Shown: in pieces, positions 1-38,010 of the stretch | Position numbering within the stretch: position 1 is the first letter of the stretch | Layout: every line of letters starts with the position of its first letter | Origin: Helicobacter cetorum | Lineage (GTDB): Bacteria; Campylobacterota; Campylobacteria; Campylobacterales; DZAY01 | NCBI GenBank assembly: GCA_022729735.1 | Contig: DZAY01000004.1 | Coordinates: 1-64,000, forward strand | DNA: 64,000 bases | Reading direction: 5' to 3' | Program-made: the position numbers and the translations under genes | The notes under the pieces: model-generated | The model's input: the letters and a program-made list of their open reading frames with translations, nothing else | Databases searched by the model: none | Told to the model about the DNA's origin: nothing

Positions 1-966
1 GAACTTTTTGGTAATTATCCAACAAAACAAGAAATAAAAGGCAAAGATGAAAAAGATGGAGAAACAGATGTCGATTCGGCTGATACTAAAAAGAAACCTA
101 AAAAAGGAAAAACTGTAGATATTCAGGCTGTTGTTGAAGAGTATATTCGAGAGAATAATAGTTTTGAAATTAAAAAAGAACTTAATAATAATTATCTTTT
201 GGCTAAAACTGATGGCAAAAAAATAGTTTATCATATTATTGGTCAAAAGCCAGATGATATAAAAAGAATTCCTATTTTACAAAATCTTCTATCTGCTATT
301 GATATAAGACTTTTTGGTGCAACTTTTGCAAGTAAAGAAGGGAATATGTCAATTCATGGAAATGTGCAAATAACTCACGGAATAAATATTTATTCTGAAA
401 ATAATATATTTAGTGAAGACATAACAAGTCCTTTTAGAAATCCAAATGCAAAATCAGAAGATAGTATGCAAACAACTATCGGAAATCAAACAGTATTAGA
501 AGAAGGTCATTATCTACATAACTTTACAATCAATCCTAAAAATAGTGAAGAACTTGTAAAATTAATAGATGATAAAGGATATTTAACAATTGATGATATA
601 GAAAAATTAAAAAATGCTATGAATAACAGTGTAACATATCTTGATAGTGCTTCTAAGATTGGTGTAGAAAATGAATTTTCCCTTTTTATTACATTGGTTA
701 AAGATTGTAAAATTCAACTCCCATCATTTACATCACTAATAAAAGTTATTAAACAAGACGGATTTAAACGAAAATTAGATTTATCAGAAATTAAAACTCT
801 TTTAGATGATATAGAAGAACATATTGAGGGAGTTGAAATTTTTATTGATGAGACAAAGTTTAATTATGATGATGAAATCTTTGATATTAAAAAAGTATGT
901 ATAAAATCTATTATTTCAAATAAAGAGTTCAAAAAGGAGTCAACAGATGATAGCACTCAATCTTAA
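1..966 (+). CDS. cas7: CRISPR-associated Cas7 (type I-B, Csh2-like), 5' end outside window
   Basis: The reading frame is open from base 1, so the gene begins upstream; a TTG at 199 is internal and not a start. Cas7 forms the backbone of the Cascade complex and coats the crRNA. The segment IDIRLFGATFAS (about 100-111 of the visible part) followed by GNVQITHGIN matches the conserved glycine-rich core of the Csh2/Cas7 family. The first 50 visible residues are Lys/Asp-rich and probably a family-variable insertion. The end overlaps the next gene by 20 bases. Position before cas5 and cas3 supports the call; cas6 and cas8 are expected just left of the window. Confidence 0.85.
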   Translation, partial: ELFGNYPTKQEIKGKDEKDGETDVDSADTKKKPKKGKTVDIQAVVEEYIRENNSFEIKKELNNNYLLAKTDGKKIVYHIIGQKPDDIKRIPILQNLLSAIDIRLFGATFASKEGNMSIHGNVQITHGINIYSENNIFSEDITSPFRNPNAKSEDSMQTTIGNQTVLEEGHYLHNFTINPKNSEELVKLIDDKGYLTIDDIEKLKNAMNNSVTYLDSASKIGVENEFSLFITLVKDCKIQLPSFTSLIKVIKQDGFKRKLDLSEIKTLLDDIEEHIEGVEIFIDETKFNYDDEIFDIKKVCIKSIISNKEFKKESTDDSTQS

Positions 967-1204
967 TATAAGAGATGAAGTTTATGATAAAGTGATGTAT
1001 TTTTTACAATCTCTACCAAAAAATGATATAGAGATTGTTCAAAAAGTAGCCATTGAAGAGATAGACCCTACATCTTTGCCAAAAGAACATTTTGATTATA
1101 TCAGCAAAGAAGAACTTGAAGAAATGGATAGAGTTTTAGCTGAAGCTAAAAAGATAGGTTTTAAAAATCTAAAAACTTTTGATGAGTTTAAAAATGAACT
1201 ATGA
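947..1204 (+). CDS. Antitoxin of a RelE/ParE-type toxin-antitoxin pair
   Basis: An 85-residue acidic protein whose opening (LNLNIRDEVYDKVMYFLQSL) resembles small antitoxins common in Campylobacterota, with a helical acidic tail likely to wrap the toxin. An AAGGAG ribosome site lies inside the 3' end of cas7, and the ATG at 947 overlaps cas7 by 20 bases, so it is translationally tied to the cas operon. It should neutralise the toxin encoded directly after it. No classic DNA-binding fold is obvious. The antitoxin role rests mainly on size, order and the convincing toxin next door. Confidence 0.75.
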   Translation: MIALNLNIRDEVYDKVMYFLQSLPKNDIEIVQKVAIEEIDPTSLPKEHFDYISKEELEEMDRVLAEAKKIGFKNLKTFDEFKNEL

Positions 1205-1460
1205 AATTATCCCTCTTAAGCCATTTCAGAAATTCTTTGCACTTAGAACATCTAGCGAAAGAGATACGATAAGCTTAAAACTAGAAGTTTTAAAAATAAA
1301 TCCATTTGATAGCAAAAGCTTGGACATCAAGAAACTAAAAGGCTACAAGAGAAGATATAGACTTAGAGTTTGGGGCTATAGGATAATCTACGAATTGCAT
1401 GATAATGAACTTATTATTATTTTGATGGATGGTGGTAGTAGAGGAGATGTATATAAATGA
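1194..1460 (+). CDS. RelE/ParE-family toxin
   Basis: An 88-residue basic protein with the RelE/ParE pattern: a helical start (FQKFFALRTSSERDTI), a central KLKGYKRRYRLRVWGYRIIY strand block and a final ELIIILMDGGSRGDVYK strand. Family members either cleave mRNA at the ribosome (RelE) or inhibit gyrase (ParE); the sequence does not decide which. I chose the ATG at 1194, which overlaps the antitoxin stop; ATG 1182 and TTG 1179 are upstream alternatives. The stop overlaps the cas5 start as ATGA, so the pair sits seamlessly between cas7 and cas5. Confidence 0.85.
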   Translation: MNYEIIPLKPFQKFFALRTSSERDTISLKLEVLKINPFDSKSLDIKKLKGYKRRYRLRVWGYRIIYELHDNELIIILMDGGSRGDVYK

Positions 1461-2239
1461 ATATAGATAAAATCATATCTTTTGATATTCAATCAGAGTT
1501 TGGTTTTTTTAAAAAACCAGATGTGAATGATAAATATTTTACATTCAATATAATTCCAAAGCCAACACTATTAGGAATATTTGGTGCTATTATTGGACTT
1601 GGTGGATATTCTCAAATGACAAAAGAAGATATTTATCCAGAGTTTTATAGAGAATTACTTGATTTGCAAATAGGTATTACACCATATGGAAATAAAGGTA
1701 TATATCAAAAACGAAATATTAAATACAACAATACCGTAGGTTATGCAAATAAAGATGGTGGAACTCTTAATATTGAGGAACAAACTTTAATTAATCCAAA
1801 GTATAAAATATATGTTGCTCTTAATTTATCAAATAAATCTCACAAAAAAATAGATGAATATCTAACTTCTAAAATAGTACAATATGAATATATTCCATAT
1901 ATGGGCAAGAACGAGTTTAAACTTGATATAAAAAATATTCAAGTATTTGAAGAGAATTTTTCATTTGAATTTAATGAATCATTTGCTATTAATACAATTT
2001 TTATAAATAATAGAAAAGAAGCTTTAAAATTAAATGAAACTTTAAGAGACCCTTTTGATGTTTCAATGAGTGAGACTTACTTTTATTATTATGAAAGATT
2101 ACCCATACTATTTGATGAATTAGGTCAATATCAATATGAAAATTTTAGTTATACAAATGCTAAATTTTCTAAAGATACAAAATTTATTCAAGATTTAAAA
2201 TTGGTTAAAATTAAGGATATAGTGATATGTCTTTATTAA
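1457..2239 (+). CDS. cas5: CRISPR-associated Cas5 (type I-B)
   Basis: Cas5 is the Cascade subunit that caps the 5' handle of the crRNA. The 260-residue protein opens with ISFDIQSEFGFFKKPD and then PKPTLLGIFGAIIGLGGYSQ, the conserved Cas5 N-terminal strand and glycine-rich loop. A later ETYFYYYERLPILFD segment fits the C-terminal region. The start ATG overlaps the toxin stop by four bases, and the stop overlaps the cas3 start by 13 bases, indicating coupled translation. Length is typical for type I-B Cas5. Confidence 0.88.
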   Translation: MNIDKIISFDIQSEFGFFKKPDVNDKYFTFNIIPKPTLLGIFGAIIGLGGYSQMTKEDIYPEFYRELLDLQIGITPYGNKGIYQKRNIKYNNTVGYANKDGGTLNIEEQTLINPKYKIYVALNLSNKSHKKIDEYLTSKIVQYEYIPYMGKNEFKLDIKNIQVFEENFSFEFNESFAINTIFINNRKEALKLNETLRDPFDVSMSETYFYYYERLPILFDELGQYQYENFSYTNAKFSKDTKFIQDLKLVKIKDIVICLY

Positions 2240-4809
2240 AATTTGACCATATAGTAAGAGAGCCTTATTTTGATTTTGAAAAAATTATTAAAAATTCTAA
2301 AAACTATTTTGCTCATTTGTCTAAAGAAACAATTTCAGAAAAAGAAAATCTCTTAACTCATTCTAATTTAGTTTTGAAATATTTTTTAAAATTAATATAT
2401 GGCAACCAAATAGAAAACAGTATTGATACTATTTTGTTCAAAATTTCAAATGACATTATTTTTCTAAATAGTATAAAACTACTTTATATAAAAGCTATCT
2501 ATTGGCATGACATTGGAAAAATAAATGAAAATTTTCAATTAGAAAAAATGAAAAATAGTAAATTTTCAAAAGTTAATTATGGTATTTCATCAAAACATTC
2601 TATACTAAGTGCTTATTTATATCTTATTAGTAGTTTTGATTATATCAATAAAAAATATCAAGACAGAAATCAAAAAATAGAACTTATTTCTATTTCAATT
2701 AACTTTGCAATGACAATTTGGCGACATCATACAGGAATTGAAAAATCCATAAAAGAACTTATTTGTGATAAAGATGAAGGATTACCAATTTGTAGTAAGT
2801 TAGATACATATTTAAATATATTAGATTTGGACATAAATAGGCAAACACATAATATATTGATAAATAATTTAGTTAATGGCGACTTGAAAAATATGTTAAA
2901 GACTAATGAAAATTATTATATCCTCTCAAAATCTCTCTTCTCACTTTTGATTATTTCAGATTATTATGCAACTGCTCAATTTATGAATTATGGGAATTGT
3001 GATGAATTGAAATATAAAGATTTTGGATTGATAGATGATAATTTTAGAGAAATAACTTATAAAAGATTTTATGAAAATCAATTTGATAAAGAACTCATAA
3101 ATAAAACTAATTGCAATTTTAAAGATTTTAATGAACTTCAAGAAAAATCAAATAACAATTTAAATCATCTACGAAATAAGCTTTTTATAGAAGTTAGAAC
3201 AAACTTACAAAATGAACTTAAAAAAGAGAAATTGCAAAATCTTTTCTATATAGAAGCTCCAACAGGTGCTGGAAAAACAAATTTATCGCTTATGAGTGTC
3301 GTTGAGATACTAAAAAATGATACTTCTATAAATAAAGTTTTTTATGTTTTTCCTTTTACGACTCTCATTACTCAAACATATGAATCAATAAAAAAAACAT
3401 TAAATCTTAATAACTCACAAATTGTAGAACTACACTCAAAAGCAAAATATAATCAAAAAGAGATTAATGAAGATGGAGTTTATGGATATGAGAAAAAAGA
3501 TTTTTTAGATAATCAGTTTATGAACTATCCGATTACACTTCTTAGTCATGTGAAATTTTTTGATATTTTAACAGGCATTAGCAAAGATGATAACTATATA
3601 TTTCATCGTTTAGCAAACTCGATTGTTATAATTGATGAGTTACAATCATATAATCCAAAATATTGGTCTCAAATCGCATATTTACTTGAAATATTATCTA
3701 AAAACTTGAATATCAAATTTATTTTAATGAGTGCAACACTGCCAAAAATCGGACAAATATTTGGAGATAATTTTGTTAATTTAGTATCAGATAAAAATAG
3801 TTATTTTTCAAATCCAAATTTTGCAAAAAGAGTAGAAGAGATAAAAGAGATTAAAGATAATACAAAAGAGAGTATTTATAAAACTCTTATAAAAGAGAGC
3901 CAAATTTATAAAAATAGCAATCAAAAAGTAAAAACTATTATAGAGTTTATCACCAAAAAAGGAGCAGATGAGTTTTATAAATATGTAGAAACACAAAAAG
4001 ATAAAATGTTTGATAAGACTTTTATTTTGAGTGGAACAATTTTAGAACCAAGACGAAAAGAGATAATAGATTTTTTAAAAAATAATGATGATAAAAATAT
4101 TTTACTCATCACAACTCAAGTGGTTGAAGCTGGGGTTGATATTGATATGGATATAGGATTTAAAGAAAAATCTCTAATAGATAGCGATGAACAATTAGCT
4201 GGACGAATAAATCGAAATAGTAAAAAAAGTGGAAACAAACTATTTTTATTTGAGATGGAGAAGAAAAATAGTAATTTTGTATATAGAGATGATAGAAGAT
4301 TAAAAGTCCAAAAAGAGTCTAAAAAAGATGAATTAGAAGATGTTTTGAACACAAAAGATTTTGATAAATTTTATAATCAAGTAATAGCAAAAATTCAAAA
4401 AGAAAATAGTACTAATTTTATGGAAAATTTAAATACATACATTGACTATATTAAAAATCTTCGCTTTAATGAAACCCATATAAAGCTTATAGATTCTCAA
4501 ACAATCTCTGTCTATGTGCCTCATAATAAAATGGCAAAACTCTATTGGAATGCTTATATAAAAATTATTGAAAATAAAGAGTTAGATTTTACTACCAAAA
4601 AAATCAACTTAAAAAAATTAACTGCAAAACTTTCAAAATATACATTTTCATTACTAAATTATCAAAATAGTGGAATTAAATATCTAAAACCATATAGTGA
4701 AGAAAAATATGGTTATTTATATTTAACTGAATGGAAAAATATTTATAGTTATGAAGATGGTTTAGACACAAGTGTATTAAGTGGTGATTTTGTAGGTATG
4801 ATTATCTAA
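2227..4809 (+). CDS. cas3: CRISPR-associated helicase-nuclease Cas3 (HD plus DExD)
   Basis: Cas3 is recruited by target-bound Cascade and degrades the invading DNA. The 860-residue protein has an N-terminal HD nuclease: THSNLVLKYF near residue 40 and YWHDIGKINENF near 92-103. The superfamily 2 helicase follows with Walker A EAPTGAGKTN near 344, Walker B as IIDELQSY near 470 (DELQ in place of DEAH, as in several Cas3 proteins), MSATLP near 501 and the motif VI segment AGRINRN near 658. Both catalytic halves look intact, so interference should be functional. Its start lies inside the 3' end of cas5. Confidence 0.95.
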   Translation: MSLLKFDHIVREPYFDFEKIIKNSKNYFAHLSKETISEKENLLTHSNLVLKYFLKLIYGNQIENSIDTILFKISNDIIFLNSIKLLYIKAIYWHDIGKINENFQLEKMKNSKFSKVNYGISSKHSILSAYLYLISSFDYINKKYQDRNQKIELISISINFAMTIWRHHTGIEKSIKELICDKDEGLPICSKLDTYLNILDLDINRQTHNILINNLVNGDLKNMLKTNENYYILSKSLFSLLIISDYYATAQFMNYGNCDELKYKDFGLIDDNFREITYKRFYENQFDKELINKTNCNFKDFNELQEKSNNNLNHLRNKLFIEVRTNLQNELKKEKLQNLFYIEAPTGAGKTNLSLMSVVEILKNDTSINKVFYVFPFTTLITQTYESIKKTLNLNNSQIVELHSKAKYNQKEINEDGVYGYEKKDFLDNQFMNYPITLLSHVKFFDILTGISKDDNYIFHRLANSIVIIDELQSYNPKYWSQIAYLLEILSKNLNIKFILMSATLPKIGQIFGDNFVNLVSDKNSYFSNPNFAKRVEEIKEIKDNTKESIYKTLIKESQIYKNSNQKVKTIIEFITKKGADEFYKYVETQKDKMFDKTFILSGTILEPRRKEIIDFLKNNDDKNILLITTQVVEAGVDIDMDIGFKEKSLIDSDEQLAGRINRNSKKSGNKLFLFEMEKKNSNFVYRDDRRLKVQKESKKDELEDVLNTKDFDKFYNQVIAKIQKENSTNFMENLNTYIDYIKNLRFNETHIKLIDSQTISVYVPHNKMAKLYWNAYIKIIENKELDFTTKKINLKKLTAKLSKYTFSLLNYQNSGIKYLKPYSEEKYGYLYLTEWKNIYSYEDGLDTSVLSGDFVGMII

Positions 4810-4818
4810 AGGAAAAAT

Positions 4819-5499
4819 ATGCAACTCTCAAATTTAAGCTTAAGAGAAAAAGAGCAACTATTTCGAGAATTAAGAGTTTCTATAACTCATCACTCAAATG
4901 CAATAGAAGGGATTACTCTTACTTTTGGTGAGACAAAAGCACTATTAGAAAATGGCACAACAGCAGGAGGAAAACCATTAAGCGAACAGCTTATTATTTT
5001 GGGTTTTGCAAAAGCTTATGATGTAATAATTCGTGAAGCAAATAATCAAAACTTTAAAATCACTTCATCATTTATCAAAGATTTGCACTATATAATGTTT
5101 GAAGATGCTCTAAAAATATCAAGTGGATTTGTAGAAAAACCAATAGGAGCTTATCGAACTGATGAGAGATATATAAAAGGTGTAAATATTAAATTGTCTC
5201 TACCTAATAAAATTGCTCAAGATATTGAAAATTTACTTTTTAGATATTCGCAAAAAATGAGTATTGAAGAGATAGCAACTTTTCATATAGAGTTTGAGAA
5301 AATTCACCCTTTTGCAGATGGAAATGGAAGAATTGGAAGATTATTAATGGCATTTCAATTTATTCAAAACGATTTAATACCGCTACTAATATTAAATGAT
5401 AATAGAAAAGAGTATCTTCAATCTTTAGAAAATTCAAATAATTTATCAGATTTTTTAATTATGTCTCAAAATGAGAGTTTAAAATTGGTTAATTTATGA
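4819..5499 (+). CDS. Fic-domain protein with N-terminal inhibitory motif
   Basis: Fic enzymes usually transfer AMP from ATP to hydroxyl side chains of target proteins. The catalytic loop HPFADGNGRIGR is complete at residues 163-174, including the histidine base and both arginines. An inhibitory motif of the form S-x-x-x-E-G (SNAIEG) is at 26-31, placing the protein in the self-inhibited class where the helix glutamate blocks ATP. A target-docking flap segment GAYRTDERYI is near 110-119. The gene lies nine bases after cas3, with AAGGAA before its ATG, and overlaps cas4 by four bases. Its target is unknown. Confidence 0.9.
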   Translation: MQLSNLSLREKEQLFRELRVSITHHSNAIEGITLTFGETKALLENGTTAGGKPLSEQLIILGFAKAYDVIIREANNQNFKITSSFIKDLHYIMFEDALKISSGFVEKPIGAYRTDERYIKGVNIKLSLPNKIAQDIENLLFRYSQKMSIEEIATFHIEFEKIHPFADGNGRIGRLLMAFQFIQNDLIPLLILNDNRKEYLQSLENSNNLSDFLIMSQNESLKLVNL

Positions 5500-5990
5500 A
5501 AATTACAGGCACGATAATAAACTACTATTTTCATTGCAAAACTCAAATGTGGCTTCACTCAAATCGTTTAAACCTCGAAGATAATAGCGAAGATGTGCGA
5601 ATTGGTAGAGTATTGCACGAAATAAATGAAGAAAGTAGCAAAAATGCTGAAGTTAAAATCGAAAATATCGCAATTGATAAGATTACTGATAATTATGTAG
5701 TTGAGCTAAAAAAATCAGATAGTGATATGGTTGCAACAAAATGGCAACTTTTATATTATTTATACATTTTAAAGCAAAAAGGTATAGTTAAAAGTGGCAG
5801 ATTAGAGTATTTTGAAACAAACAAGCAAGATAAAAAGAGTGAAATAGTAACTCTTGATGAGGTAAGTGAAAATGAGCTTTTGATAATTTTGCAAGAGATA
5901 GAAAAGCTTATGAACTCTAATATTTCACCAACTCCAGAGTTTTTGCCAAAGTGCAAAAAATGTGCATATTATGAGTATTGTTTTATATAA
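5496..5990 (+). CDS. cas4: CRISPR-associated Cas4 nuclease
   Basis: Cas4 trims prespacers and helps select the PAM during spacer acquisition with Cas1-Cas2. The 164-residue protein shows the RecB-like pattern: a histidine in IGRVLHEI, an aspartate in AIDKITDN, the E-x-K in VVELKKSD, and Q-x-x-x-Y in WQLLYYL. Iron-sulfur cysteines are present near the start (FHCKTQMW) and as CKKCAYYEYC at the end. The ATG overlaps the fic stop. Length fits the short type I-B Cas4. Confidence 0.9.
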   Translation: MKITGTIINYYFHCKTQMWLHSNRLNLEDNSEDVRIGRVLHEINEESSKNAEVKIENIAIDKITDNYVVELKKSDSDMVATKWQLLYYLYILKQKGIVKSGRLEYFETNKQDKKSEIVTLDEVSENELLIILQEIEKLMNSNISPTPEFLPKCKKCAYYEYCFI

Positions 5991-6009: not shown

Positions 6010-6255
6010 ATGCTTATGTATGAAATACAAGAGATTGAAAATAGTCCATCTATATTAAATAGTATTGGAGTTGGAGAGATTGTAAAAGAGAAAAAACCTG
6101 TTGGATTTTTTATCTCATATAAATATGAAAAAGTTTTAAAAAATGTAATTTTAGAGATTGAAAAAATTGAAAAAATTGAGAAGCTTAAAAAGGTTGCTAT
6201 TGCACAAAAACAAGACCCAATAGAAGAAGGTGGAGTTGATGATGGAATTAAATAG
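6010..6255 (+). CDS. Probable antitoxin of a MazF-type pair (Phd/RelB-like)
   Basis: An 81-residue protein, with AAGGA six bases before the ATG. The segment VGEIVKEKKPVGFFISYKYE recalls the Phd/YefM pattern in which a strand ending in PVAVLIS precedes the toxin-binding helix, and the second half is highly charged (IEKIEKIEKLKK). It is immediately followed, with overlap, by a clear MazF-like toxin, which is the main reason for the call. It may bind its own promoter, but here it sits inside the cas operon, 19 bases after cas4. Confidence 0.65.
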   Translation: MLMYEIQEIENSPSILNSIGVGEIVKEKKPVGFFISYKYEKVLKNVILEIEKIEKIEKLKKVAIAQKQDPIEEGGVDDGIK

Positions 6256-6583
6256 AGGTGATATATGTTTGGTTGATTTCAATCCTGCAAAAGGTGGTGA
6301 AATTGGAAAACTAAGACCAGCTATAATTTTGAGCGATAAATGTCAAATAGAAATAGTTGATACTATAATTGTAATTCCTCTCTCAACTGTAATTCAAAAA
6401 GATACTCTACCATATAGATTTTTTATTTCTGCAAGAGATAAATTAAGGCTTGATAGTGATGCTTGTATTTATGAAATAAGGGCATTATCAAAGCAAAGAG
6501 TTAAAGAAAAACTTTCAAAATTAACATTGAATGAGTTAAAAATTATTCAAAATGCTATTTGTGAAATTTTAATAAAAGATTAA
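6242..6583 (+). CDS. MazF/PemK-family toxin (endoribonuclease)
   Basis: MazF toxins cleave single-stranded RNA at short sequences. The 113-residue protein has the family opening RGDICLVDFNPAKGGEIGKL followed by RPAIILSD, then TIIVIPLST and a C-terminal helix ending ICEILIKD. I chose the ATG at 6242, six bases after GGAG; ATG 6239 and GTG 6230 are alternatives. It overlaps the preceding antitoxin by 14 bases and ends eight bases before cas1. No frameshift or missing core residue is seen, so it is probably active and requires its antitoxin. Confidence 0.88.
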   Translation: MELNRGDICLVDFNPAKGGEIGKLRPAIILSDKCQIEIVDTIIVIPLSTVIQKDTLPYRFFISARDKLRLDSDACIYEIRALSKQRVKEKLSKLTLNELKIIQNAICEILIKD

Positions 6584-6591
6584 GTAATACT

Positions 6592-7913
<1,322 letters not shown>

Positions 7914-8078
7914 TTTTTCCAACCTCTTTTTATTTTTATTTATGCTCAAAGTGGCTAAAATACGAAATTAGCCAGTTCTTTTAACAACTCATTGTTAAAA
8001 ACTAAAAACGCTTGGAAAAACCATCTCAAAGTGGCTATTTTGGGGAATGTATATTTTTCAAATTGCCTATTTTCTTTA
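7914..8078 (+). promoter_or_regulatory. CRISPR leader
   Basis: The 165-base AT-rich stretch lies between cas2 and the first repeat, on the side where the array begins as judged by repeat polarity. It contains a direct repeat CTCAAAGTGGCTA at 7945-7957 and 8025-8037 (80-base spacing). It also has two inverted repeats: TGGCTAA/TTAGCCA (7952-7974) and TTTTAACAA/TTGTTAAAA around CTCA (7979-8000). Such elements could guide integration or host-factor binding. The array promoter is expected here, but no clear -35/-10 pair stands out. Confidence 0.75.
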
Positions 8079-10354
8079 CTTTAACCTATACACATGGTGT
8101 ATTGAAATAGTGGTAATCTTACTGTTACACAAAAGAAAATTTATCTTTAACCTATACACATGGTGTATTGAAATGCTAATGAAATTTGTTTAATTTTAAT
8201 AAATGATTTGAACTTTAACCTATACACATGGTGTATTGAAATTTTATAAGAATATCTATTTTTTCTGATAAGAGTTTACTTTAACCTATACACATGGTGT
8301 ATTGAAATCTTGAAGCAAAAGATAAAACACCCATTTGTTATAATCTTTAACCTATACACATGGTGTATTGAAATATAAACTCTATATTGCAAACGATAAA
8401 AAGATAAAACTTTAACCTATACACATGGTGTATTGAAATACAGGTGCAACACTTACCCAAGTTCCATTAATTTTGACTTTAACCTATACACATGGTGTAT
8501 TGAAATACAGCTATATATGATAGTGGAGAAGGTCCTGGTCTACTTTAACCTATACACATGGTGTATTGAAATTTGGGGGAGCTGGAAGCAGTGAAGCTGG
8601 AAGCAGTGCTTTAACCTATACACATGGTGTATTGAAATTTTTCTTTTATGATTAGAGGATTTTTAAATATTTTTGCTTTAACCTATACACATGGTGTATT
8701 GAAATTTTTGAACAAAATTTGTATCCCTTGACAAAAAATTTCTTTAACCTATACACATGGTGTATTGAAATTGAAAAGTAATCTTAAAAGTATTACTAAC
8801 TTGTTTAAACTTTAACCTATACACATGGTGTATTGAAATGTCGTTGGTCTGACAAGTGAAATTAATAATAAAAACTTTAACCTATACACATGGTGTATTG
8901 AAATCTTGGTGAGTATTTAAATGCTCACCAAATTCTTTTCTTTAACCTATACACATGGTGTATTGAAATAAATTGTAGAAAAAGACCAAGCGGAGCGATA
9001 CTTTACCTTTAACCTATACACATGGTGTATTGAAATGCTCCAGCAACAAGTGGCAAAGCTGTTGTTAGGATAGCTTTAACCTATACACATGGTGTATTGA
9101 AATCCTAATAAAAATGGGTCTATAACTCCCATTTTTATTACTTTAACCTATACACATGGTGTATTGAAATACATATGTTAAAAAGTCTATTTGATGAAGG
9201 GTTAACTTTAACCTATACACATGGTGTATTGAAATTTTTAGATGTTTGCCTCCAATATCGGAAAGATTTCTTTAACCTATACACATGGTGTATTGAAATT
9301 ACTTAAAAGTAGAGGCTTTACGGCTTTTATTGGTCTTTAACCTATACACATGGTGTATTGAAATTTAACACCCATTTTGGTAAATACTCCAAATGGGCTT
9401 ACTTTAACCTATACACATGGTGTATTGAAATAGAGATGTTAAAAAGTCTATTTGATGAAGGGTTAATCCTTTAACCTATACACATGGTGTATTGAAATTA
9501 GATAGTGCCAAAAATTTCATAACTGGCGATAGAGCTTTAACCTATACACATGGTGTATTGAAATATTCCTCTTTTAATTTTTTTTTAATTTAATTGATGT
9601 CTTTAACCTATACACATGGTGTATTGAAATACTTCTTTTAGTTTGCTTTGAAGTTGTCTAATTTGTCTTTAACCTATACACATGGTGTATTGAAATGTTG
9701 GTAATGGTGGAGGAACTTATGACCCAAACATTCTTTAACCTATACACATGGTGTATTGAAATCTTTGCCGACTGGTTTTAGTGAGGATATGATGGCAAAC
9801 TTTAACCTATACACATGGTGTATTGAAATCCTATTAAAACTTTTAAAAATAATGTTCCCTCTCCTTTAACCTATACACATGGTGTATTGAAATTTGATTA
9901 ACTTGATAGATGGCTCTAAAACTCTATCTTCTTTAACCTATACACATGGTGTATTGAAATCAAGCCCCTTTTAATTTTGCAGAAGTTGCGACTGGCTTTA
10001 ACCTATACACATGGTGTATTGAAATAATCTTAATCCTAATTCTAATAAATCTCGTGTTTTACTTTAACCTATACACATGGTGTATTGAAATAGCTCTAAA
10101 AGCTTATTAAATACATCATCAATTGTAGCTTTAACCTATACACATGGTGTATTGAAATTCGATTATTGATGATTGAAATAACTCCGAGAAGAAGCTTTAA
10201 CCTATACACATGGTGTATTGAAATTTTACTCTTATCTCAACTTTTTTAGTTGCGCTGAAGCTTTAACCTATACACATGGTGTATTGAAATGTATTAACAA
10301 TACTACTATTTTTTTTACTAATAACTTTAACCTATACACATGGTGTATTGAAAT
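8079..10354 (+). CRISPR. CRISPR array, 35 repeats of 30 nt, 34 spacers
   Basis: By reading I count 35 copies of the same repeat, starting CTTTAACCTATACACATGGT and ending GTATTGAAAT, with no variant, including the last copy. Spacers are 34-38 nt. The repeat holds a perfect six-base stem ATACAC/GTGTAT around ATG. The ATTGAAAT end is the expected eight-base 5' handle of type I-B crRNA, so transcription runs left to right from the leader. Spacers at 9171-9205 and 9432-9468 are near-duplicates. Those at 8905-8939, 9104-9140 and 9365-9401 are hairpins. An intact cas1-cas2 pair sits upstream. Confidence 0.99.
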
Positions 10355-33729: not shown

Positions 33730-36227
33730 TCCTCACTTATCCAATGTTTAATTTTCTCTACAAATTCCAATTTTAATGTTTCGCCACTCTCTTTTGTAGC
33801 TGTTTGAACTGATAAATGGAGTGAATCATCATGTTGGTCTGGTATCATTAAAATCCATGATTTATCATCAAGTGAAATTTTAACACCATCTACAAATGAT
33901 GCTTCTTTACCAACACTTGCTTCCATAAATTTTCGCATCATCTTGCCTTTATATGCACTAGGACATGTTACATTACTATTTTCATAAAAAAACTCTGGAA
34001 TAGTTTTTAGAATATCTGAAATTGTTGTATCTGTTTTTGCTAACATCTCTACAATTTTCACACTTGCAAAGAGAGCATCATTACTTAAACTAAAGTTTGT
34101 AAATGTGAAATTACCTTCTACATTTGCAACTAAAGCATAATTCCTCATCTTAGATGCACTCATACCAGAAATTTTTGCTCTCTCAATTACAATATTTTTA
34201 AATGAGCTATCAAGCACATCTGGAGCCCAAACAGGAAGTAAAACTTTTGTATCTTTTGGAGCAACTTTATCAAATAGTGATAATACCACCAAAAGTGTTA
34301 TATGTGTGTCTAAAATCTCACCACTATTTGCAATCAATTGAACTCTTTGTCCATTTGGATATATCATAAATCCAGCATCTAAAGTTAAAGTTTGAACAAT
34401 TTTTGATACATCTTCTTGTGATTTTTCTATAACTTTTGTAATGTTGTGAAGTTTTTTAGTATCTGCATAAGCACTTAAAACAATGTTTTCAATTCCCAAA
34501 ATATTTAAAATTCGTGGATAAACATCTGCTGTTGAACCATGCATTATATCTACAACAATTTTTGGTTTTTTATTTGTAATTACATCTTTGTCAAGTTGTG
34601 ATATAAAATCATTTACATACTCTTCTCTAATATCATCAACTGCCAAAATTTCACCAATCTCATTGAAATTAACTCTCCTAAAGCTCTCTCTAAAAAATAC
34701 TCTTTCACAATTTTTTTCACTATTTGTATCAATTGGTAGAGCATTATCGTTATAAAATAGAATTTCCGTATTCATAGGATTATTAATTGATTGTCTAAAA
34801 TGGACACCTGCTGAAATATTTTTATTTTTAGTTAATGAGTACCGCATAATATTTGATGGACAAACTCTTAAATCAATTACATTAATTCCAGCACTCATCA
34901 ATCCTGCAAAAAATGCTCGCTTTAACATTCTTGAAGTTTTGTGATAATCTCTTGATAAATATACTGTTGAGTGTGCTGGTAACATAGAACCAAAAGCTTC
35001 TGCAAGTTTGATACTTAGCTCACAACTAAGCTCAACATTTGTTCTTCCACTAACAACTCCACCATTAAAAATTGAGCTTTTATATTTATCACCCCAAACA
35101 ACACTATTACTTAAAATAGCACCCTCTTCTATCTCTTTGTTTGGCCAAATTGTTACATCTTTTTCTACACTTACTAAATTTTCAATTACACACTTTTCAG
35201 CTATTACTGCACCTTGCTTGATTTTTACTTTTCTACCAAGTCTATTATCATTGCAAATAACTGCTAAATTTAGTGAATTTTTTTCGCCAATTTCTACTCT
35301 ATCCCATAAAATTGAACTCTCTAATTCGCTCTTTTTACCAATGACAACATCATTTCCAACAACACAATTAATAAGAGTTACACCTTTGCCAATAGTTACA
35401 TTTTTGCCAAGTAGCACATTTCCTTCAACTTCTAAATCTTCTGGTAACTCCATATTTTCATCTGCTAAATATAGTGTGCCATTTGATTTTTTAACTTCAA
35501 ATCCACCAATTTTTAATCTTACAACACCATTTAAAATATCTTCAAACACATCTCTATAACTTTTTGGATTTCCGACATCTCTCCAATAGCCTTTTAAGTT
35601 TTTACCCCAAAGTGGAATACCTTCTCTCATAATCAAAGGGAACAGCTCTTTTGCAAAATCAAATGCTCCACTATCTAGAATATAGTTTAATATTTCTGGC
35701 TCAATTATATAAATTCCCGTATTTATAGTATCTGAAAATACTTCACCCCAACTTGGTTTTTCTAAAAATTTTTGAATTCTTCCATCAGCTCCTGCAATTA
35801 CAACTCCAAATTGCAATGGGTCACTAACTGAAGTAAGTCCGATTGTAAGTTTTGAACTCTTTTGAGCATGAAAATCAATTAACTCTTGAAAATTAAAATC
35901 TGTAATTAAATCACCACTTACAATAATAAAGCTCTCATCTAAGAACTCTTTTGCCTTTTTTACAGCTCCAGCTGTGCCATAATCATCATCTGGAACTACA
36001 TAATTTATCTTTACACCAAACTCACTTCCATCTCCAAAATGGCTTTTTATAACTTCTGGCATATAGTATAGTAATACAACCATCTCTTTTATTCCAATAT
36101 CTCTTAGACTCTCTAAGACATGTTGCATCATTGGCTTGTTTAACACTGGTAACATAGGTTTTGGAATAGAGTTTGTTAATGGTTGTATTCTTGTTCCAAA
36201 ACCACCTGCCATAATCACTGCTTTCAT
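33726..36227 (-). CDS. Fused sugar-nucleotidyltransferase / phosphomannomutase-like protein
   Basis: The 833-residue protein has an N-terminal nucleotidyltransferase (MKAVIMAGGFGTRIQPLT, then GAVKKAKEFL and an aspartate in SGDLITDF), a left-handed hexapeptide helix near 250-370, and a C-terminal phosphohexomutase (about 375-833). The mutase phosphoserine loop, normally TASHNP, reads VHFRQSINNPMNT, as in related fused proteins. It may interconvert hexose-phosphates and make NDP-sugar. The ATG at 36227 follows AGGAG; a longer frame start at 36269 lies inside the preceding gene. Confidence 0.82.
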   Translation of the reverse strand: MKAVIMAGGFGTRIQPLTNSIPKPMLPVLNKPMMQHVLESLRDIGIKEMVVLLYYMPEVIKSHFGDGSEFGVKINYVVPDDDYGTAGAVKKAKEFLDESFIIVSGDLITDFNFQELIDFHAQKSSKLTIGLTSVSDPLQFGVVIAGADGRIQKFLEKPSWGEVFSDTINTGIYIIEPEILNYILDSGAFDFAKELFPLIMREGIPLWGKNLKGYWRDVGNPKSYRDVFEDILNGVVRLKIGGFEVKKSNGTLYLADENMELPEDLEVEGNVLLGKNVTIGKGVTLINCVVGNDVVIGKKSELESSILWDRVEIGEKNSLNLAVICNDNRLGRKVKIKQGAVIAEKCVIENLVSVEKDVTIWPNKEIEEGAILSNSVVWGDKYKSSIFNGGVVSGRTNVELSCELSIKLAEAFGSMLPAHSTVYLSRDYHKTSRMLKRAFFAGLMSAGINVIDLRVCPSNIMRYSLTKNKNISAGVHFRQSINNPMNTEILFYNDNALPIDTNSEKNCERVFFRESFRRVNFNEIGEILAVDDIREEYVNDFISQLDKDVITNKKPKIVVDIMHGSTADVYPRILNILGIENIVLSAYADTKKLHNITKVIEKSQEDVSKIVQTLTLDAGFMIYPNGQRVQLIANSGEILDTHITLLVVLSLFDKVAPKDTKVLLPVWAPDVLDSSFKNIVIERAKISGMSASKMRNYALVANVEGNFTFTNFSLSNDALFASVKIVEMLAKTDTTISDILKTIPEFFYENSNVTCPSAYKGKMMRKFMEASVGKEASFVDGVKISLDDKSWILMIPDQHDDSLHLSVQTATKESGETLKLEFVEKIKHWISEE

Positions 36228-36228
36228 T

Positions 36229-38010
36229 TTACTTACTCCTTTTAATTTTCCAAATTTTACACTCACCAAGCAACTGTTTATTTTTATTAAATAGTGCTTT
36301 CATCTGCTCAAAAATACTATTTAGTTTTTTGATAGTATCAATCGCATAGGGTCCCTTATTTAGCATTACACAATCTGCTCTTTGTGCTGTTCCTGCATCT
36401 ATTACTTCTGCTCTACTTGGAATATTTGTTTTCATTTGTGTTTCTAACACTTGTGTTGCTAAAATTACAGGAATATGAGCTGAAGCACAAAGTTCAAATA
36501 TCTCTTCTTGCAAAAGTGCTAAATTTTCAAATCCAGCTTCAATTGCTAAATCTCCCCTTGCTATCATTATAGCACTTTTTGGAGCTTGTAGTAGTCCTTC
36601 GATAATTTCTGGTAGATTAGAAATCGCTTTTTTTGTTTCAATCTTTGCAACAACTCCAATCTCTCTACCACTTTTATTAATTATTTCAAGTAAATCTAAA
36701 ATATCTTCTTTGCTTTGAGCAAAAGATACTCCAAAAATATCTACAAGGTCAATGATTTCTGCTATATTTTTTTTATCTTCTTTTGTGATTGCTTTTAGAT
36801 TTATATCAGAATCTGGAAAGTTTATCCCTTTTTCTTCTTTTAAAATAAACCCTTTATCTTTTGCTAAAATCACTTCACACATTACTCCATTATCTTTGAT
36901 AGATGTAACTTTTAATCCAAGTTTGCCATCATCAATAAATACTCGCTCACCTTTTTTGACACACGACATAGCTTCTTTGTTTGTGCAAGAAACTACCGCA
37001 TAATCTCGCTCGATAGTTTTAGCACTTCCAAAAATATCATCAGTTGTAATAAAAATTTTATCTTTATCAAATAGTCTAATCTCTTCTATTGTATCTTCAA
37101 AATCTTTTAGAGTTGAAGTAAAAAAGTTTTTCTTCTTTTTCAGTTTCAAGACAGTTTCATTAGATAATATTACTTTTTTATCAATTGTAGCTTCAACTAA
37201 ATTAGAACTCTTTTTAGTTACAAGCAACTCTCGTTTTTTATCTAAAGCATCATAAAATAGGATTTTATCACCCTCTTTCAACTCTTTAAAAAACTCTTCA
37301 CTTACAACCAAATTTGCAGGAACTTTTTTACCTTTTAAATTTATACTCTCCGATTTTGTTTGACCATTAGTTGATATAGTAATTGTAGTTGTTTCAACTT
37401 TTGAGCCAATTTTTATAGATGGTTCAACTCTACTGATTTTACCTGTTCTAATCTTTGGTCCAGCAATATCAGCAAAAATTATTGCATTTGGATTTTGTGA
37501 TTTAATATTATTAATCATACTTTTCCAAACTTCACTACTATCATGAGATGTATTTACTCTAAACATATTTACATTTAAATTTAACATCTCTTTTATAAAT
37601 TCTCTGTCATTTGCTGAATCAGTTGGCAAAGTCAATAAAACTTTTGGTATTCCACAACTTAAATTTTCTACTCCAAAAATTGCTCTATTTTTTTGAGCAA
37701 TTTCTAAAGAGTCTTTGATTGTCAAATAGCTATCCATGTTTTCTACATTTTCTTCTTTTGATAGAGCAGATAGTATCTCAATAACATGATTTAAACTATC
37801 AATAACATGCATTTGAGACCTACCAAGAGATGATAAGCCAATTAATGAGAGTCTATCTTGAAGTTTTGTATTATCTCTACTTCTAAGCTTTAGATAGTGA
37901 TACATGTTTTTTATACTAACATTTTCACTATCAACTTTCTGCTCTAATACTACCTCTTTTAACTTTCTTAACTCTTTTAATAGAGCTTTTACCTCTTTTA
38001 TATCTATCAT
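36229..38010 (-). CDS. pyk: Pyruvate kinase-like protein with N-terminal extension
   Basis: Pyruvate kinase makes ATP and pyruvate from phosphoenolpyruvate. The 593-residue protein has an unusual first 120 residues (including IGLSSLGRSQMHVIDSLNHV), then the barrel with MFRVNTSHDS near 160, IFADIAGPKIRTGKI near 186-200, VVAKIETKKAI, IMIARGDLAIEAGF near 482 and ILATQVLETQMKTNIPSRAE near 517-536. The usual SGETAxGxYP stretch is replaced by NKGPYAID and the C-terminal regulatory domain is missing. It is probably catalytic but not allosterically regulated in the usual way. Confidence 0.8.
   Translation of the reverse strand: MIDIKEVKALLKELRKLKEVVLEQKVDSENVSIKNMYHYLKLRSRDNTKLQDRLSLIGLSSLGRSQMHVIDSLNHVIEILSALSKEENVENMDSYLTIKDSLEIAQKNRAIFGVENLSCGIPKVLLTLPTDSANDREFIKEMLNLNVNMFRVNTSHDSSEVWKSMINNIKSQNPNAIIFADIAGPKIRTGKISRVEPSIKIGSKVETTTITISTNGQTKSESINLKGKKVPANLVVSEEFFKELKEGDKILFYDALDKKRELLVTKKSSNLVEATIDKKVILSNETVLKLKKKKNFFTSTLKDFEDTIEEIRLFDKDKIFITTDDIFGSAKTIERDYAVVSCTNKEAMSCVKKGERVFIDDGKLGLKVTSIKDNGVMCEVILAKDKGFILKEEKGINFPDSDINLKAITKEDKKNIAEIIDLVDIFGVSFAQSKEDILDLLEIINKSGREIGVVAKIETKKAISNLPEIIEGLLQAPKSAIMIARGDLAIEAGFENLALLQEEIFELCASAHIPVILATQVLETQMKTNIPSRAEVIDAGTAQRADCVMLNKGPYAIDTIKKLNSIFEQMKALFNKNKQLLGECKIWKIKRSK

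Follow-up and report, generated by a model that had tools for sequence, protein, structure and literature searches.

Several described systems bear on spacers that record one target more than once. In Legionella pneumophila Toronto-2005, a type I-C system carries old and new spacers against overlapping target sites of the element LME-1; the older spacer is mismatched in the PAM or the seed, and the authors read this as escape followed by primed acquisition (PMC5071653). In a type I-F system of Pectobacterium, a plasmid study reports new spacers gained after point-mutation escape, through primed and interference-driven acquisition, with a fixed PAM-side edge and a length that varies through an imprecise PAM-distal cut; the re-taking of the same protospacer from a variant does not appear to have been the subject of that experiment (PMC5059440). 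For type I-B, the seed has been delimited in Haloferax volcanii, where pairing has to be perfect across the first 10 nt, position 6 excepted (PMC4390866).

The spacers 17 and 21 of a Helicobacter cetorum array resemble the LME-1 case in being two spacers of one array that were acquired at different times, the older of which differs in the seed (positions 2 and 4). The LME-1 target is known and perfectly matched by the newer spacer, whereas the present pair is known from the array alone; moreover, the Legionella system is of type I-C with overlapping sites, while this one is of type I-B and the two spacers have exactly the same edge. The fixed PAM-side edge and variable PAM-distal length are shared with the Pectobacterium system (PMC5059440). 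Both differing positions fall within the region of essential pairing in Haloferax (PMC4390866), so that the predicted location of the changes in the seed holds by analogy between an archaeal and a bacterial I-B system. With the Legionella precedent already published, the pair adds a further instance to a process already on record, ordinary CRISPR adaptation in an arms race.

The window, that is, the whole stretch of 64,000 nucleotides that was analysed, belongs to a fragmented assembly (2.52 Mb over 66 contigs, estimated contamination 7.4%), and the genome is probably metagenome-derived. Among solved structures, the NAD synthetases nearest to the product of one window gene are 1xng and 3p52, proteins of Helicobacter and Campylobacter, which points to a probable host within Campylobacterota. 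The genes cas7, cas5b, cas3, cas4, cas1b and cas2 are arranged in this order and are followed by the CRISPR array (Table 1). The array repeat, CTTTAACCTATACACATGGTGTATTGAAAT, is 30 nt long, ends in ATTGAAAY, is unmutated in all 35 copies and separates spacers of about 36 nt; related arrays have the same repeat style. Judged from the genes and repeats, the system is of type I-B, with a Cas1 of the I-B family, Cas2, Cas4, Cas5b, Cas7, Cas3 and the matching repeat style. Cas7 is truncated by the contig edge and scores below the cut-off of the Csh2 profile TIGR02590. Since the contig begins inside cas7, the cas6 and cas8 genes of this system would fall beyond the edge. The operon is interrupted at three places by toxin-antitoxin-like genes: a ParE/RelE-like toxin gene and its partner between cas7 and cas5 (window 947-1460), a gene with a Fic domain in the cas3-cas4 interval (4819-5499), and a PemK/MazF-like toxin gene and its partner between cas4 and cas1 (6010-6583).

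Table 1. Features of the type I-B locus, in window coordinates.
Feature	Position	Strand	Remarks
cas7	1..966	+	PF05107 2.3e-22, above cut-off; ORF open at contig start
cas5b	1457..2239	+	TIGR02592 above cut-off
cas3 (HD + helicase)	2227..4809	+	TIGR01587, TIGR01596 above cut-off
cas4	5496..5990	+	PF01930; TIGR00372 above cut-off
cas1b	6592..7605	+	TIGR03641 377.6 bits (cut-off 304.1)
cas2	7602..7913	+	PF09827; TIGR01573 above cut-off
leader, probable	7914..8078	+	between cas2 and first repeat
CRISPR array	8079..10354	+	35 identical 30-nt repeats; 34 spacers, 34-38 nt
repeat preceding spacer 17	9141..9170	+	
spacer 17	9171..9205	+	35 nt, ACATATGTTAAAAAGTCTATTTGATGAAGGGTTAA; newer of the pair
repeat preceding spacer 21	9402..9431	+	
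spacer 21	9432..9468	+	37 nt, AGAGATGTTAAAAAGTCTATTTGATGAAGGGTTAATC; older of the pair

When spacers 17 and 21 are aligned at their 5′ edges, they differ only at position 2 (C in 17, G in 21) and position 4 (T and G, respectively), exactly as originally described; an identical core of 31 nt at positions 5-35, ATGTTAAAAAG, is preceded by ACAT in spacer 17 and by AGAG in spacer 21. Under the base composition of the array, about 3e-13 pairs this alike are expected among its 561 spacer pairs, and chance is excluded as the source of the likeness. Spacer 21 is the older of the two, given that the leader lies on the left, as indicated by the orientation of the repeats, by the adjoining cas2 and by the related arrays, many of which have decayed repeats at their far (3′) end. 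The older spacer had been described as two bases longer, and both its length and the leader-side order agree with this.

The common 5′ (PAM-side) edge and the identical core bear out the reading that both spacers begin at one and the same protospacer edge and stem from two variants. On this sequence evidence, the two are very probably separate recordings of one PAM-defined protospacer, taken from two variants of one mobile element, a phage or plasmid. Their different neighbours and lengths point to two independent acquisitions rather than to duplication within the array. Cas1-Cas2, perhaps with Cas4, would have fixed the PAM-side edge both times, with far-end cuts 2 nt apart, and spacers 20, 19 and 18 would have been acquired between spacer 21 and spacer 17. 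The source of both would be one evolving element, whose variants presumably carried the PAM at the same place.

Searches for the protospacer of the pair found none in the assembly itself or in 399 other genomes from the order (up to 3 mismatches), none in the phage and plasmid collections searched, which was the check originally proposed, none in IMG/VR (exact 18- and 20-mers; degenerate protein patterns in three frames) and none in GTDB contigs (exact 26-mer). Partial matches in the related genomes G052, G141, G325 and G076 were rejected, having at least 9 mismatches. A repeat pattern run against the GTDB contigs hit isolated, unrelated sequences and revealed no arrays. For three other spacers of the window, imperfect matches turned up: in contig C43 of the same assembly for spacer 9 (TTA upstream) and spacer 16 (TCT upstream), and in a related genome for spacer 19 (CCA upstream). 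On these matches, the PAM of the window system is only loosely known.

A second type I-B system in the same assembly offers a pair with a known target. Its cas genes are on C28, where two ORFs before cas7 fit candidate cas6 and cas8b genes in position and size. Its array, with the repeat TTTTAACCTATACATGAGATGTATTGAAAC, at least 362 repeats and 359 spacers read, is spread over four contigs, C28 (L016), C48 (L011), C63 (L012) and C11 (L013), broken at repeats; in C63, a block of 8 units is duplicated (6354-7367). It holds five same-edge near-duplicate pairs, with differences at position 4; at 1; at 7; at 21 and 30; and at 21, 27, 28 and 30. Contig C46 of this assembly (L015, L021; 37,739 bases) is a phage-like element, possibly a phage-plasmid, with terminase, portal and capsid genes and an actin-like (segregation) gene. 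It is matched by about 30 spacers of the second array, eight of them perfectly, with the PAM TCN, mostly TCA or TCG. The matches often come from runs of consecutive spacers, the pattern to be expected if acquisition is primed or interference-driven. The pair at 3566 and 3962 of the reverse complement of C11 (differences at 21, 27, 28 and 30) maps to the single site C46:29038 with the PAM TCA. The present allele of this site has 3 differences from the older spacer and 6 from the newer one, so the older matches better; since it differs from both, a minimum of three alleles, all with one PAM, have occurred at this site. Thus C46:29038 directly demonstrates, for a pair other than 17/21, that such pairs are alleles of one site. 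A search of the own genome for targets of the remaining second-array pairs found only the arrays themselves.

Two further observations concern this element. C43 (L014; 11,880 bases) is related to C46, with a similar actin-like gene and a large primase/helicase-like protein. At 35447-36652, C46 encodes a 401-residue protein for which Pfam and PHROGs gave no match; on visual inspection, its C-terminal part resembles a tyrosine recombinase or telomere resolvase.

Furthermore, same-edge pairs were surveyed in related arrays. With the window Cas1 as query, related systems were found in the 399 genomes of the order (forty regions), and the extracted arrays gave a sample of 39 arrays, 37 from relatives and two own, with 2,151 spacers. 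Seventeen same-edge pairs with 1-8 differences were found within arrays, the window pair and 16 more, while 2.18 million pairs compared between genomes yielded five same-edge near-duplicates. All differences are confined to positions 1-8 in 8 of the 17 pairs (expected 2.1, P=0.00016), in 7 of 16 when the window pair, which prompted the test, is left out (P=0.001), and in 4 of 11 among relatives alone (P=0.02); control windows at 9-16, 17-24 and 28-36 have no excess of confined differences. With the Haloferax I-B seed (positions 1-5 and 7-10), 6 of the 13 unequal-length pairs other than the window pair qualify (expected 1.8, P=0.002). Counted by single differences, 14 of 34 lie in positions 1-8 (expected 7.7, P=0.01), or 12 of 32 without the window pair (P=0.04), and P ranges from 0.01 to 0.1 across such counts; with an E. 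coli-type seed and the strict set of relatives, the excess is not significant. Block duplications recur in the related arrays L082, L091 and L111; one duplicated copy in L111 carries a single change at position 7, and this pair was left out of the strict test because it sits in a duplicated block. IMG/VR scans for the targets of two other seed-variant pairs found nothing. A seed bias in same-edge pairs is therefore likely, with a statistic of moderate strength that does not establish it firmly.

The same survey revealed exact same-edge re-acquisitions of unequal length in L080, L082 (two), L093 (two), L111 and the own second array (two), and re-acquisition of one site is normal in these arrays. 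Such events are common enough that no escape is needed to explain a pair. The protospacer may thus be a hot spot, taken independently from two co-circulating related elements, with seed differences that are ordinary strain variation. We give this account close to an even chance; it competes only with the escape step and leaves re-acquisition itself untouched. Besides the exact re-acquisitions, it draws on pairs that differ only far from the seed (at 15 and 21; at 18; at 21 and 30), and it is opposed by the excess of seed-only pairs, which has no counterpart in control windows of similar size.

Origins within the array or the assembly compete with re-acquisition itself. In one such origin, spacer 21 was duplicated in the array and the copy then acquired point mutations and lost 2 nt. 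The known block duplications, such as the 8-unit one in C63 and those of L082, L091 and L111, make duplication as such a real process in these arrays, and one copy in L111 carries a one-base change. Unlike such blocks, the present pair involves a single shared spacer between different neighbours; moreover, the loss would need to hit the spacer-repeat junction exactly, in an array whose repeats have all escaped mutation, and we regard this origin as very improbable. An assembly or sequencing artefact is more improbable still: the many contigs, the estimated contamination and the breakage of the second array at repeats invite the suspicion, but a single contig holds both spacers, which differ in their flanks, in length and by two substitutions, and genomes assembled as one contig contain comparable pairs (L088, at 18; L091, at 4 and 7).

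Given two independent acquisitions, the seed differences may have deprived spacer 21 of its effect on the newer variant and so have driven renewed, possibly primed, acquisition. This escape step fits the seed statistics and, by analogy, the Legionella precedent; the surplus of seed-only pairs lends it weak support, and we hold it tentatively, at somewhat less than even chance. C46 speaks against seed mutation as the only route of escape: wherever a site keeps a TCN PAM and has 1-4 mismatches, positions 1-8 are free of them, and other sites have altered PAMs. The broader proposal, that repeat acquisition in these I-B systems is preferentially triggered by variants without seed pairing to a resident spacer, is less likely than not. 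If it is true, same-edge seed-only pairs would be a readable natural record of single escape events in their order. Each same-edge pair may capture, in order of time, the states of an element on either side of a change at a host-targeted site. Should the seed bias hold in larger samples, arrays alone, without the virus genome, could serve to count and order escape events.

The shared part had also been read as covering a gene start, ATG TTA AAA AGT CTA TTT. The ATG at positions 5-7 does open a frame through both spacers, but the reverse-strand frames are equally open. In the forward frame, E/H-MLKSLFDEGL, both changes fall in one codon (Glu/His), whereas in the reverse frame, INPSSNRLFNI-S/C, one change is synonymous and the other a conservative Ser/Cys exchange. 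Searching IMG/VR for the forward frame with a degenerate pattern yielded no matching gene. For the reverse frame, one IMG/VR phage protein has YNPSTNRLFNI, about 0.4 such matches being expected by chance according to our estimate. With the core open in several frames on both strands and the milder changes in reverse, the gene-start reading is unsupported and unlikely.

Finally, near-perfect inverted repeats resembling terminator hairpins were noticed by eye in spacers 13 (8905-8939), 16 (9104-9140) and 20 (9365-9401) of the window array.
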